Part shown: positions 11,945 to 43,335 of the stretch, one piece after another | How the letters are laid out: each line of letters opens with the position of its first letter | How positions within the stretch are numbered: the stretch's first letter is position 1 | NCBI RefSeq assembly: GCF_025311495.1 | Contig: NZ_CP104398.1 | Span: forward strand, 806,001-870,000 | DNA length: 64,000 nt | DNA from: Limosilactobacillus oris | GTDB lineage: Bacteria > Bacillota > Bacilli > Lactobacillales > Lactobacillaceae | Direction of reading: 5' to 3' | Program-made: the position numbers and the translations under genes | Notes under the pieces: model-generated | What the model saw: only the letters and a program-made list of their open reading frames with translations | What the model was told of the DNA's origin: nothing | Database searches by the model: none

Positions 11945-11964
11945 GCTTTAATTTCAATCAAACT

Positions 11965-12054
11965 TAGAGCACAAGGCACATCAAACTTAGTGCTGCTTCC
12001 TTCCGGACCTGACACGGTTCGTAAGCGCACCCTTGCCCTAAGGCCTTACGGCAA
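11965..12054 (-). ncRNA. ffs: Signal recognition particle RNA (small bacterial type)
   Basis: The minus strand contains the invariant SRP domain IV apical loop (GTCAGGTCCGGAAGGAAGCA, about 11992-12011) flanked by complementary arms. CTTAGGGCAAGG near the 5' end pairs with CCTTGTGCTCTAAG near the 3' end. A TATTAT -10 lies at about 12058-12063. The RNA binds Ffh in co-translational membrane targeting. The position between tadA and dnaX is conserved. Ends are estimated from the promoter and pairing. Confidence 0.93.
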
Positions 12055-32689: not shown

Positions 32690-32820
32690 ATGTATTTTGA
32701 TCGGATTTATAAAAAAATCCCTATGACCGCAGACATAGAGAAGGAATTTACATTTCTTCCTCGGCAGGCAATATTAAGGCTTGCGCCACCTGAGTCTTAG
32801 GCAGAGTCATATTTAATCAA
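32690..32820 (-). promoter_or_regulatory. Ribosomal L10 leader with attenuator
   Basis: The 5' UTR of rplJ on the minus strand contains GCCTAAGACTCAGGTGGCG and GCCTGCCGAGGAAG, matching the L10-binding leader, followed by a hairpin CTATG/CATAG and TTTTTTT (about 32708-32735). Excess L10 stabilises the terminator form, adjusting rplJL transcription. Confidence 0.85.
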
Positions 32821-39804: not shown

Positions 39805-41220
39805 TTACTGCTCCTTCTTGTAACGCGTTCCCTGGGGAGTATCTTCAAGGATAATCCCCTGTTGTTTTAATTCATCCCGAATTTGGTCGCTGCGAGCGAA
39901 ATCCTTGTTCTTCCGGGCCTGGTTCCGCTCCTCAATCAGCGCCTTGATCTGTTCGTCGTCAATGTGGTTATCATGGGCAACGAGCTTGATGCCAAAGATG
40001 CTGATCAGCTGGGCCAGCTTGTCCTTGTATGCCTGGAGGGCCCCCTGCTTGACCGCTGCTTGCTGGGCGTAAGTGTTGGCCGCCTTGACCAGCTCATAAA
40101 CCACGGCAATCCCGTTTTGCACGTTGATATCATCATCCATGGCCGTGGTAAAGCGTGCGGTAAAGTCTGCCAGCTGCTGGGTTACCAGTGCGTCGTCTCC
40201 TGCTGCCGCGTCCTGCTGTCGGTAGGTCAGGTTGTCGTAAGCGGTCTGGATGTGTTCCAGGTTATTTTTAGCATCCGTCAGGTTATCCTCGCTGTACTGG
40301 ATGGGCCGCCGGTACTGGGTCGTTGCCATAAAGAAGCGTAGCACCTGCGGGTCGACCGTCTTGATAATATCGTGGACAGTAATGAAGTTGTGCAGGGACT
40401 TGCTCATCTTCTCGTTGTCCTTGCCAATCGTTACAAAGCCATTGTGCATCCAGTAGCGGACGAAGAGCTGGCCGGTCGCCGCCTCACTCTGGGCAATTTC
40501 ATTTTCGTGGTGGGGAAATTCAAGGTCCTGTCCACCGGCGTGAATATCCAGGGTCTGACCGAGGTACTTTGTGGACATTACCGAGCATTCGATGTGCCAG
40601 CCAGGACGGCCCTGGCCCCATGGGGAATCCCAGCTGATTTCACCAGGCTTGGCCGCCTTCCAGAGGGCGAAGTCCATCGGGTCCTCCTTTTTGCCAATCT
40701 CATCGGCGCTGACGTGTTCACTGGCACCAACTTCCAGGTCGTCAATCGACTGCCCAGACAGCTGACCGTAGTGGGCAAACTTCCGCGCCCGGTAGTAAAC
40801 ATCCCCGTCGCTTTCGTAAGCATACCCCTTCTCAATCAGTGTTTGGACAAAGGCAATGATGTCGGGAATGTTTTCGGTTGCCCGGGGGTGCTTGGTTGCC
40901 GGTTCAATATTAACCGCCGTCGTGTCCGCCATAAAAGCCTGGATGAACTTATCCGCCAGTTGGGGCACGGTAATCCCCTGCTCATGAGCGGCCTTGATCA
41001 TTTTGTCATCCACGTCGGTGAAGTTAGAAACGTAGTTGACCTGGTAGCCTTTAAACTCAAGGTAGCGACGAACGGTATCAAAGGCGATGGCACTACGCGC
41101 GTTGCCAATGTGAATATAGTTATAAACGGTGGGACCACAGACATACATATTAACAACCCCCGGGTGGAGGGGCTTAAATTCTTCTTTTTGCCGGGTTAAA
41201 GTATTGTATATCTTCAGCAT
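39805..41220 (-). CDS. cysS: Cysteinyl-tRNA synthetase
   Basis: 471 residues, class I synthetase. [16 protein letters not shown] carries the HIGH motif and a zinc ligand Cys; KMSKSLHNF is the KMSKS loop (about residue 266). GWHIECSVM and [10 protein letters not shown] supply further zinc ligands. First gene of cysS-mrnC-rlmB. No T-box leader was recognised upstream. Confidence 0.97.
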
Positions 41221-41363
41221 TTTGATCTTCTCCCATCGTTGATTGAAATCTTCCCAATAATTTTAACACATTCGGCCTACCGGTTCGGGATTTTCTCACC
41301 ATAAACAATTTTTGGAATTTTGGTCATACTTTCTTCACATTTAATTGTTACTATAATAACCGT

Positions 41364-41516
41364 AGCAAGGAGCAATCCTTACTACATTCAATGAAACCTA
41401 TTATTTTTCAATTACTCCTCCCAATAGTAACCGAAAAAATAATAAAAATTGCGAAATCTCCCCCAAGATTATCGTAATACTCCCTAATGAGATAGCTCCC
41501 AAGCTATCTCTTTTTT
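41364..41516 (+). ncRNA. Candidate small RNA with repeated C-rich exposed segments
   Basis: TATAAT at 41352-41357 precedes, and a strong terminator ends, a ~150-nt region with no ORF between leftward genes. Predicted hairpins: AAGGA/TCCTT (41367-41380); TTACT/AGTAA with loop CCTCCCAAT (41412-41430); AATCT/AGATT with loop CCCCCA (41455-41470); terminator stem GAGATAGCT/AGCTATCTC with loop CCCA (41489-41510) and TTTTTT. A fourth segment, ACTCCCTAA, lies single-stranded at 41479-41487. Loops of this kind pair with Shine-Dalgarno sequences in Gram-positive sRNAs such as RsaE. The -35 is weak. Transcription is not proven. Confidence 0.55.
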
Positions 41517-41540
41517 GTACTAGCTAGCCAAACAACGGCG

Positions 41541-41573
41541 CAGTACACAGATGGGCTCCAGTGCTCGGCAGTT
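41541..41573. repeat. Family C repeat, copy 3, left part (interrupted by IS3)
   Basis: GGCGCAGTACACAG followed by the left hairpin arm GGGCTCCAGTGCTCGGCA (41553-41570) and GTT. The matching right arm resumes at 43267. Confidence 0.8.
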
Positions 41574-41617
41574 TGGACTGCACCCTGTCAAGTAGACAGG
41601 TAATTATACAATGAATG

Positions 41618-42481
41618 TTAGGCAGCTTGATGCCGGTATTCTACCGGGGTCAGGCTGTTTAATTTTACTTGATAACGGTGATGATTGTAGAAGTAGATAT
41701 ATTGATCAATTGAAGTGACTAGTTCCTCATAGCTTCGGAAGATTTGTCCATAGTAGGCCTCGTCCTTATAGTGGCTCCAGAAACTTTCCATCGGGGCATT
41801 ATCAATGCACTTCCCGACGCGGGACATACTGCGACTGATACCATGCTCGGCCGTCAAACGAGCAAACTCCTTGGAAGTGTATTGGAAACCACGATCACTA
41901 TGAAGTAATGGTTTGGCAGTCGGATAGAGTTTTAAAGCCTGTTCAAGCGTCTTCATTACCAATGGGTTGTCATTGCGCTGGCTAACGACATAACTAATAA
42001 TCTCGCCGTTGTATAAGTCCTTAACAGCACTGAGATAGGCTTTTTGACCATTACCATAAGTCAGATATGTTACATCAGTTACCCACTTTTCATTTAACCG
42101 TTTAGCTGTGAAATCGCGGTTAAGGAGGTTCGGCTCATAGCTTTGTCCACGAGCGATTGTGCAGCTGTGACGAGGACGACGAATCACCGCCCGCAGGTTC
42201 ATTTCAACGAGAAGTCGCCGAATGCGCTTGTGGTTGTAGTGGCAGTTATAGCGGCGATTAATGAGCATCGTTAGTCTGCGGTAGCCCCAGGTACCCTTCA
42301 TTTCCCAATAGGCCTGTCTGAGCCGCGCTTTTAGTTGCTTATTGACTGCTTCTTTAGTAGGAAGTGGTCGGGAAAGCCAGCGATAGTAAGCTGATCGTGA
42401 GACCTGGGCAAGAGCACAAAGTCGCTTGACTAATTGCCCTGGAAAAGCCTGACAAGTAGCCTGAATGGCCTGATATCGCAT
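41618..42481 (-). CDS. IS3-family transposase OrfB
   Basis: 287 residues from the ATG; the frame stays open upstream into orfA, so in vivo it is probably the C-terminal half of an OrfAB fusion. DDE catalytic residues: Asp in EKWVTDVTYLTYG, Asp in LLHSDRGFQYTS, Glu in APMESFWSHYKDE. Typical IS150 group rve integrase core. Confidence 0.93.
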   Translation of the reverse strand: MRYQAIQATCQAFPGQLVKRLCALAQVSRSAYYRWLSRPLPTKEAVNKQLKARLRQAYWEMKGTWGYRRLTMLINRRYNCHYNHKRIRRLLVEMNLRAVIRRPRHSCTIARGQSYEPNLLNRDFTAKRLNEKWVTDVTYLTYGNGQKAYLSAVKDLYNGEIISYVVSQRNDNPLVMKTLEQALKLYPTAKPLLHSDRGFQYTSKEFARLTAEHGISRSMSRVGKCIDNAPMESFWSHYKDEAYYGQIFRSYEELVTSIDQYIYFYNHHRYQVKLNSLTPVEYRHQAA

Positions 42482-42498
42482 CAGATGACTACGATTAT

Positions 42499-43194
42499 TT
42501 ACTTCTTGTCTTCGTCCTCCAGGGCACTTAATTTTTTTAGGAAGAAGTTTTCCGCGGCGAGGTCTTGATTGCGGGCTTCTAGTTCCTTAATCCGCCGTTC
42601 CAATTGTTCTTCTTTACTTAACTTAGCCAAAGCCGGTTTTTGCATTTGATGTCCGCGATGATCAACGAGTGCTTTTCGACCGTCACGTTCATATTTCCGA
42701 ACCCAGCTATAAACCTGGCTGTAAGAAACACCATACTTCCTCACCGCTGTTTGGTAGTCCTTATCATTGGCAAGCGTGAAGTGGACAATTTCCAGCCGTT
42801 GATCGTAAGTAGTTTTCCGCGGTGTTTTCATCTTGGTAGAACCTCCCGTAATCTTCTTCAAGGTTTTACCGTTAGTATACTGGTTCACCCAACGCATGAG
42901 AAGACTACGACTGGAGATATTATACTTACGACAGCACTCTAGTTGCGAGTAATGATTGTCCAGATAATCCAGGACCGCCGCTCGCTTGAGGTCAGTAGGA
43001 TAACGGCGACAAGTGTGTGACTCCTTTAAGCCCGCCACCCCATTATTCTGGTAGTTAACGATCCACCTTCTTAAAGTTGTCCTGGCAATTCCCAGTTCTC
43101 GGGCCACCCCGCTTAAAGAGTGCTTTCTCTCCAGAACCTTTACCACGGCTACTAGCCGCTGATTTAGAGTATGATTACTAGTTCGATTGGACAT
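42499..43194 (-). CDS. IS3-family transposase OrfA
   Basis: 231 residues with repeated helix-turn-helix motifs (about 15-50, 65-100, 125-165) and a C-terminal leucine-zipper-like coiled coil (LSKEEQLERRIKELEARNQDLAAENFFLKKL). It binds the IS ends. The slippery heptamer A AAA AAA (complement of 42532-42538) lies nine codons before its stop, where a -1 shift enters the orfB frame. Confidence 0.92.
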   Translation of the reverse strand: MSNRTSNHTLNQRLVAVVKVLERKHSLSGVARELGIARTTLRRWIVNYQNNGVAGLKESHTCRRYPTDLKRAAVLDYLDNHYSQLECCRKYNISSRSLLMRWVNQYTNGKTLKKITGGSTKMKTPRKTTYDQRLEIVHFTLANDKDYQTAVRKYGVSYSQVYSWVRKYERDGRKALVDHRGHQMQKPALAKLSKEEQLERRIKELEARNQDLAAENFFLKKLSALEDEDKK

Positions 43195-43263
43195 AAAAAC
43201 TCCCCCTAGAGTTAGATACAGAATTTTGTATAATTCCGTGTCTACTCTAAAGGGAGCATATCA

Positions 43264-43335
43264 GTTTGCCGAGCTCTGGAGCCCATTTTGCTTTCGAAAG
43301 ACTGGGTGTGTGCCGTCACGCACCTAGCCATTATT
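43264..43335. repeat. Family C repeat, copy 3, right part
   Basis: GTT duplication, then right hairpin arm TGCCGAGCTCTGGAGCCC (43267-43284) and TTTTGCTTTCGAAAGACT, followed by GGTGTGTGCCGTCACGCACC. Continues the element cut by the IS. Confidence 0.8.

Follow-up and report, generated by a model that had tools for sequence, protein, structure and literature searches.

Evidence for a conserved UCCC-type small RNA gene behind a putative response-regulator repeat in Limosilactobacillus oris and its relatives

Results

The sRNA gene and its surroundings

The window, a 64,000-nucleotide stretch of the Limosilactobacillus oris genome, very likely contains a real, structured and conserved sRNA gene on the plus strand at positions 41362-41516, with a predicted transcript of approximately 155 nt. 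The gene is flanked by minus-strand genes, with cysS (39805-41220) on one side and two transposase ORFs (41618-42481 and 42499-43194) on the other. Both transposase ORFs are part of an insertion sequence (41551-43286) that lies directly downstream of the RNA and has imperfect 61-nt inverted arms (41551-41611 and 43226-43286; 79% complementary). In L. oris DSM 4864 the corresponding position carries DNA that differs from the window past the word CAGATGGG. Elsewhere in the window, Rfam models match a ribosomal protein L10 leader (32703-32819) and a bacterial small SRP RNA (11958-12044, minus strand).

The promoter contains an extended -10 element and a direct repeat, both on the plus strand. The extended -10, TGnTACTAT (41346-41354; TG at 41346-41347, hexamer TACTAT at 41349-41354), is found as TGnTAnTATA in 30 of 30 genus rows. 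It is better conserved than the overlapping TATAAT (41352-41357) that a preliminary description of the locus had named as the promoter box, and which is indeed present. Judged from the -10 element, transcription probably starts at the G of a conserved GTAG (41362) rather than at 41364 as first proposed. The preliminary description had also cautioned that the -35 element is weak. It is weak, and this is explained by the 11-bp direct repeat GTCATA-N5-TTCACA (41323-41340), a putative response-regulator site that takes its place ahead of the extended -10. The pattern TCAYA-N6-TCAYA (11-bp period), which in the window reads TCATA-N6-TCACA, occupies the -35 position in 29 of 30 genus rows. One class of activators binds in place of the -35 element. 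Activation through the response-regulator repeat, rather than repression, is the likely mode of control suggested by this arrangement.

The RNA is predicted to fold into three hairpins, followed by a linker and an intrinsic terminator, all on the plus strand. Hairpin 1 (41362-41385) forms the 5' end. Hairpin 2 (41399-41444) presents CCUCCCAAU in its loop (41417-41425), and hairpin 3 (41448-41478) presents CCCCCA (41460-41465). The linker ACUCCCUAAUG (41479-41489) has UCCC at 41481-41484, and its TACTCC is invariant in the genus alignment. The terminator (41489-41516), identified by a terminator scan, consists of a hairpin (41489-41510) and a T-run that extends to 41516. Its loop, CCCA (41498-41501), is closed by a U-A pair, and its UCCC begins in the last base of the stem. 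The exposed UCCC-type segments number four: the loops of hairpins 2 and 3, the linker and the terminator loop. The minimum free energy of 41364-41530 is -35.3 kcal/mol compared to -16.23 +/- 3.04 kcal/mol for 200 shuffled sequences (z of -6.27), none of which equaled it. The -10 box, the C-rich hairpin loops and linker, the strong plus-strand terminator and the minus-strand flanking genes of the preliminary description are all present. An independent gene, a promoter, a terminator and conserved exposed UCCC, the features by which UCCC-type trans-acting sRNAs are classified, occur together at this locus.

The approximately 147 nt that follow the promoter box had been described as free of ORFs. 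Taken literally this is not correct, as an ORF of 28 codons with an ATG start (41391-41477, plus strand) lies inside the RNA; it holds in that the ORF is very probably untranslated, because 3 of 24 genus sequences lack the ATG, the frame is not conserved and its reading diverges past approximately codon 16, and CTACATTCA, immediately 5' of the ORF, lacks a Shine-Dalgarno motif. A peptide-coding reading was rejected on the loss of the start and the diverging reading.

Conservation and covariation within the genus

The RNA was matched by blastn in 49 of 50 Limosilactobacillus genomes, with G034 as the sole miss. Among named genomes, 32 stretches contain an exact 33-nt core pattern; the titles give Limosilactobacillus for 26 of them and Lactobacillus sp., uncultured Lactobacillus sp. 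or Lactobacillaceae bacterium for six. The RNA of L. oris DSM 4864 (L082; G028) is 100% identical to that of the window. Of 30 genus loci, 29 have the RNA and cysS in divergent orientation. Among 24 distinct genus sequences, no position varies in the block GAAACCTATTATTTTTCAATTACTCCTCCC or in the ensuing AATAGTAAC. Conservation of the C-rich loops had been put forward as a test of the preliminary description, and it is borne out by the invariant block of hairpin 2 in these 24 sequences and by the recurrence of ACTCCTCC in other genera and families.

Compensatory variation within the genus is seen in hairpin 1, hairpin 3 and the terminator, three of the four hairpins; hairpin 2 is invariant, which is uninformative either way on its pairing. 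Within the genus, the alignment shows changes on both sides for 12 of 37 pairs, a count that none of 500 shuffles reached, and the number of further pair types was not above shuffles (134 of 500 reached it). In the 47-row alignment A3, which was fitted to the model so that the count is biased towards the structure, 31 of 37 pairs changed on both sides (0 of 500 shuffles). In A3, 93.2% of cells pair compared to 67.0% in shuffles (0 of 500 reached the observed value), and sliding the structure by 1-3 columns lowers pairing to 40-51%. Changes on both sides involve 9 of 9 pairs in hairpin 1, 10 of 10 in hairpin 3, 7 of 7 in the terminator and 5 of 6 in the outer stem of hairpin 2. The pairing of hairpin 2 rests on folding and on this outer stem, because no pair of its inner stem changed on both sides in A3.

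Relatives across Lactobacillaceae and Lactobacillales

A model built from the 24 genus sequences (R1) detected relatives in 56 of 396 family genomes and 9 of 40 genera (E up to 0.01). A broadened model built from 47 matches (R2), applied at E up to 0.001, extended this to 180 of 396 family genomes and 17 of 40 genera. Across the order, R2 matched 136 of 395 genomes (37 of 80 genera, six other families among them) at E up to 0.01, a threshold at which approximately four genomes are expected by chance, with E-values from the model being rough. Many genomes have several copies, and several relatives are arranged in tandem. Copy numbers per genome from R2 may be underestimates in both the family and order searches, in which seven candidates were scored per genome. 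A 9.5-kb stretch (L125) contains five matches, three of them weak (E of 0.003 to 0.05). The recurring core consists of a hairpin with ACTCCTCC at the loop, the linker ACTCC and the terminator. Members of genus g38 (L124 at 4808, L125 at 4880, L131 at 6916 and similar) have a second tandem copy type, with the same core hairpin and a different promoter that lacks the repeat. In addition, L161 and L162 of g38 each have, just past position 1501, an extra RNA-like copy recognized by eye, with the loop TACTCCCCCAAAGT, behind a perfect repeat.

The promoter repeat outside the window

Among 53 family copies, the strict pattern TCAYA-N6-TCAYA precedes 32 and the looser TCA-N8-TCA precedes 38, leaving 15 without even the latter. 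A weight matrix was made from 28 sites hand-picked by eye from these 53 copies. The window site, which was among these training sites, scores 27.2 bits, and the runner-up within the 64 kb scores 9.7 bits. Outside the training set, a significant repeat lies upstream of 24 of 41 copies and is missing in 17, compared to 0 of 41 on the reverse strand. These untrained copies include 21 from other families and 20 order-search loci, with 12 carrying a significant site in each group. L195 duplicates the L226 copy and L206 duplicates one L216 copy; the count is 23 of 39 without them, and further copies are closely related rather than independent. The repeat is absent from the second tandem type of g38, most f9 g53 copies and both Ref84 copies.

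The strict pattern was also searched in five genomes, giving 16 sites compared to two for the reversed pattern. Seven of the 16 lie ahead of RNA copies, of which three (in L161, L162 and L167) were recognized only by eye; one lies ahead of htrA in G090, and the remaining eight are intragenic or lie ahead of other genes. In the window genome, htrA has a two-part repeat whose end lies 46 nt ahead of the gene start, and a triple repeat starts 80 nt upstream of murT (MurT by Pfam). The latter is seen in L033 (1484-1520; G000:C1 near 1622190) as three TTCA repeats at 11-bp spacing. Among 29 htrA loci, significant sites (shuffle P up to 0.02) occur in 16 of 24 RNA-bearing genomes and one of five RNA-less genomes; the site is not significant in the other eight RNA-bearing genomes, and a second RNA-less genome is near the threshold (P of 0.026). 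The htrA starts assume full flanks, and L236 (G051), seemingly read at the wrong offset, is counted as a miss. In the thirtieth genome searched, no htrA match was found. The site in an RNA-less genome indicates that it can occur where the RNA is undetected.

Candidate response regulators

The window genome has seven matches to the OmpR-type DNA-binding domain. L146 is WalR (416 bits with the YycF model, cut-off 340). For L144 the best fit is PieR (276 bits, below the cut-off of 450; next best 207), and L147 has DNA-binding and receiver domains related to those of CovR and ArlR. L145 (G000:C1:1290613-1290843), which adjoins pstS, has a degenerate-looking receiver part, and its NCBIfam matches cover mainly the C-terminal two thirds. 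At the seven loci, L147 alone has a repeat site of at least 6 bits, 9.0 at best; no sign of autoregulation of a response-regulator gene via the repeat, as a site above 9 bits, was seen at any of them. The window repeat resembles Pho boxes. PhoP/Pho regulation was considered and rejected, as neither the pstS locus nor the adjoining response-regulator locus of the window genome has a good site (best 7.0 bits). CroR was considered for its effect on murT and gatD, both of which it is reported to raise in Enterococcus faecalis (PMC10952268), and was set aside in that the motif given for it in the accessible text of PMC9426447, TTTATTAA, differs from the window repeat. The PieR-like L144 or the CovR/ArlR-like L147 is favored as the regulator.

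Predicted targets

Genome-wide, extended complements of the hairpin 2 loop (14 nt, up to three mismatches) are not in excess, with 187 compared to 205 for the control. Thirty loci from the complementarity search were read, few of which lie before plausible starts. Over 183 translation starts, a biased sample from the window and other stretches of the genome, the four segments pair slightly better than shuffled segments (hairpin 2, -9.39 compared to -7.94, sd 0.81), and none beats them by 2 sd. The strongest predicted duplex in this biased sample, -17.9 kcal/mol, places the hairpin 3 loop on the Shine-Dalgarno region of the transposase that starts at 43194 (minus strand). For one start from the pattern search (L270), a duplex of -20.2 kcal/mol with the hairpin 3 loop is predicted, its high rank being biased by its origin in a complementarity search. 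The gene encodes 1385 aa from ATG (1396 from an upstream TTG), and the first 498 aa of the product contain a KxYKxGKxW signal peptide and MBG domains. The predicted pairing makes this KxYKxGKxW/MBG gene a target candidate only.

Discussion

The designation of the locus as a UCCC-type sRNA gene, already made in the preliminary description, is strongly supported by its conservation, covariation, many relatives and co-conserved promoter element. In Rfam, no model reaches its threshold on the window RNA. The preliminary description had offered RsaE as the comparison; RsaE and RoxS share the C-rich UCCC loop motif acting on Shine-Dalgarno regions (RsaE is named in PMC4132741), yet neither matches at the gathering score or is among the eight Rfam matches up to E 10. 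Nearer analogues are LhrC, the csRNAs and Ref84.

Listeria LhrC1-5 (RF00616) is multicopy, is induced by LisRK under envelope stress, and has UCCC in a loop, the linker and the terminator loop, places in which the window RNA also has UCCC-type segments; htrA is likewise LisR-regulated in Listeria (PMC4132741, PMC6305404, as far as the accessible text goes). Three UCCC sites of LhrC bind the Shine-Dalgarno region of one target (PMC4132741). Unlike LhrC, the window RNA is longer and has two more hairpins, and its repeat lies at about -39 to -22, whereas the LisR-responsive element is upstream of -53 (PMC4132741). The LhrC model does not match the window genome (E up to 0.01) and exceeds its cut-off in none of 12 genomes (one weak match, 32.6 bits vs 110), so that membership in LhrC was rejected. 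The streptococcal csRNAs (RF02379) are also present in several copies per genome, with exposed sequences complementary to Shine-Dalgarno regions, an 11-bp direct-repeat promoter and co-regulated htrA (PMC3091779, PMC12826053). The CiaR box TTTAAG-N5-TTTAAG differs from GTCATA-N5-TTCACA of the window promoter, and the window RNA scores 19.9 bits with the csRNA model (cut-off 57, E of 3.4), so that membership in that family was rejected. CiaH homologues were reported as not found in Lactobacillus in the available text of PMC3091779. Model R2 lands on both Rfam places of Enterococcus Ref84 (RF02846; L225 and L228, probably Enterococcaceae); unlike the window RNA, these copies lack a significant upstream repeat, and the Ref84 model has no match to the window RNA up to E 10, on which its membership in Ref84 was rejected as well. 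A relative in family f5 scores 45.1 with Ref84 (cut-off 52) and 33 with LhrC (cut-off 110), weak matches that share their sub-threshold list with unrelated families such as anti-hemB. By analogy, the window RNA would work like LhrC and the csRNAs, and by the Rfam models it is a member of neither.

The genes that share the repeat suggest its physiological role. In B. subtilis, the canonical CssR box TTTTCACA, which the window repeat resembles, lies upstream of the -35 of htrA and htrB (PMC6749698). In Streptococcus htrA is a CiaR target, and in Listeria it is under LisRK and PieRS; stress systems are thus described as controlling htrA in Streptococcus, Bacillus and Listeria (PMC12826053, in its accessible part). 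Because htrA is under CssR, CiaR and LisRK/PieRS elsewhere, the repeat probably marks an envelope or secretion stress regulon. The repeats at murT suggest that peptidoglycan amidation belongs to the same regulon.

What comparison of genomes shows is a structured and conserved gene, together with the repeat and its recurrence at htrA. On the reading that we consider fairly probable, the locus encodes a response-regulator-activated UCCC sRNA of the envelope-stress type that blocks Shine-Dalgarno regions in the manner of Listeria LhrC and the streptococcal csRNAs. An OmpR-class two-component response regulator of an envelope or secretion stress system, acting also on htrA and murT, would bind TTCAYA-N5-TTCACA and activate an extended -10 promoter that lacks a -35 element. 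The independently transcribed RNA of approximately 155 nt would expose its UCCC-type segments in two hairpin loops, the linker and the terminator loop, and these would pair with G-rich Shine-Dalgarno regions. Pairing would block translation of selected, probably surface or exported, proteins. Such blocking is plausible, as is the putative repression of AGGAGG-led mRNAs that had been proposed for the RNA.

It is unlikely that the C-rich segments of the same sRNA mainly bind protein or sponge another RNA. Such a function would fit the lack of an excess of extended complements in the genome and the invariance of hairpin 2, which goes far beyond what pairing alone needs; four separate exposed UCCC-type segments nonetheless match the layout of LhrC, whose segments bind a Shine-Dalgarno region (PMC4132741). 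A UCCC sRNA under constitutive or other control, where the repeat would be bound by a repressor or a general factor such as WalR instead of a stress regulator, is also improbable. The repeat alone does not give the direction of its effect, htrA lies downstream of the walR-walK operon in the window genome, and several copies in other genomes have different promoters. The repeat, however, sits where the activator class replaces the -35 element. Stress systems, moreover, control htrA in Streptococcus, Bacillus and Listeria (PMC12826053).

There is very little to recommend the view that the RNA acts in cis on cysS or the insertion sequence, arises as a by-product of either, or encodes a small peptide. 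The divergence from cysS in nearly every genus locus, the presence of the 28-codon ORF and the strong predicted duplex at the transposase start could be read in this way, but the RNA has its own plus-strand promoter and terminator, several relatives elsewhere stand in tandem, and the ORF loses its start in 3 of 24 sequences and diverges in reading. Moreover, the identical RNA in L. oris DSM 4864 precedes different DNA, not the insertion sequence of the window. That the RNA serves cysS or the insertion sequence in cis is unlikely, and the trans-acting, Shine-Dalgarno-blocking sRNA is the reading preferred here.

A broader proposal is that the window RNA is a member of an old, order-wide multicopy family of UCCC sRNAs in the Lactobacillales, tied by the TTCAYA-N5-TTCACA response-regulator box to the stress response of htrA. 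Enterococcus Ref84, and perhaps Listeria LhrC, would then be branches of this family that did not arise independently, and the response regulator would play in lactobacilli the part of CssR, PieR or LisR. This proposal is put forward tentatively, and is held to be slightly less probable because the two Ref84 copies lack the repeat and the LhrC scores are weak.

In the open-access literature, as far as its accessible text extends, no description of lactobacillar UCCC sRNAs forming a stress-regulated family was found, and the main text of a study of lactococcal sRNAs and cell-wall antimicrobials (PMC13109727) contains no mention of UCCC, htrA or LhrC. If the preferred reading is true, a large group of food and gut bacteria has a circuit of a two-component system and an sRNA like those of Listeria and Streptococcus. 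Through the co-conserved promoter box, both regulator and regulon can be tested directly, and the sRNA family provides a means to ask about the common descent of LhrC, the csRNAs and Ref84.
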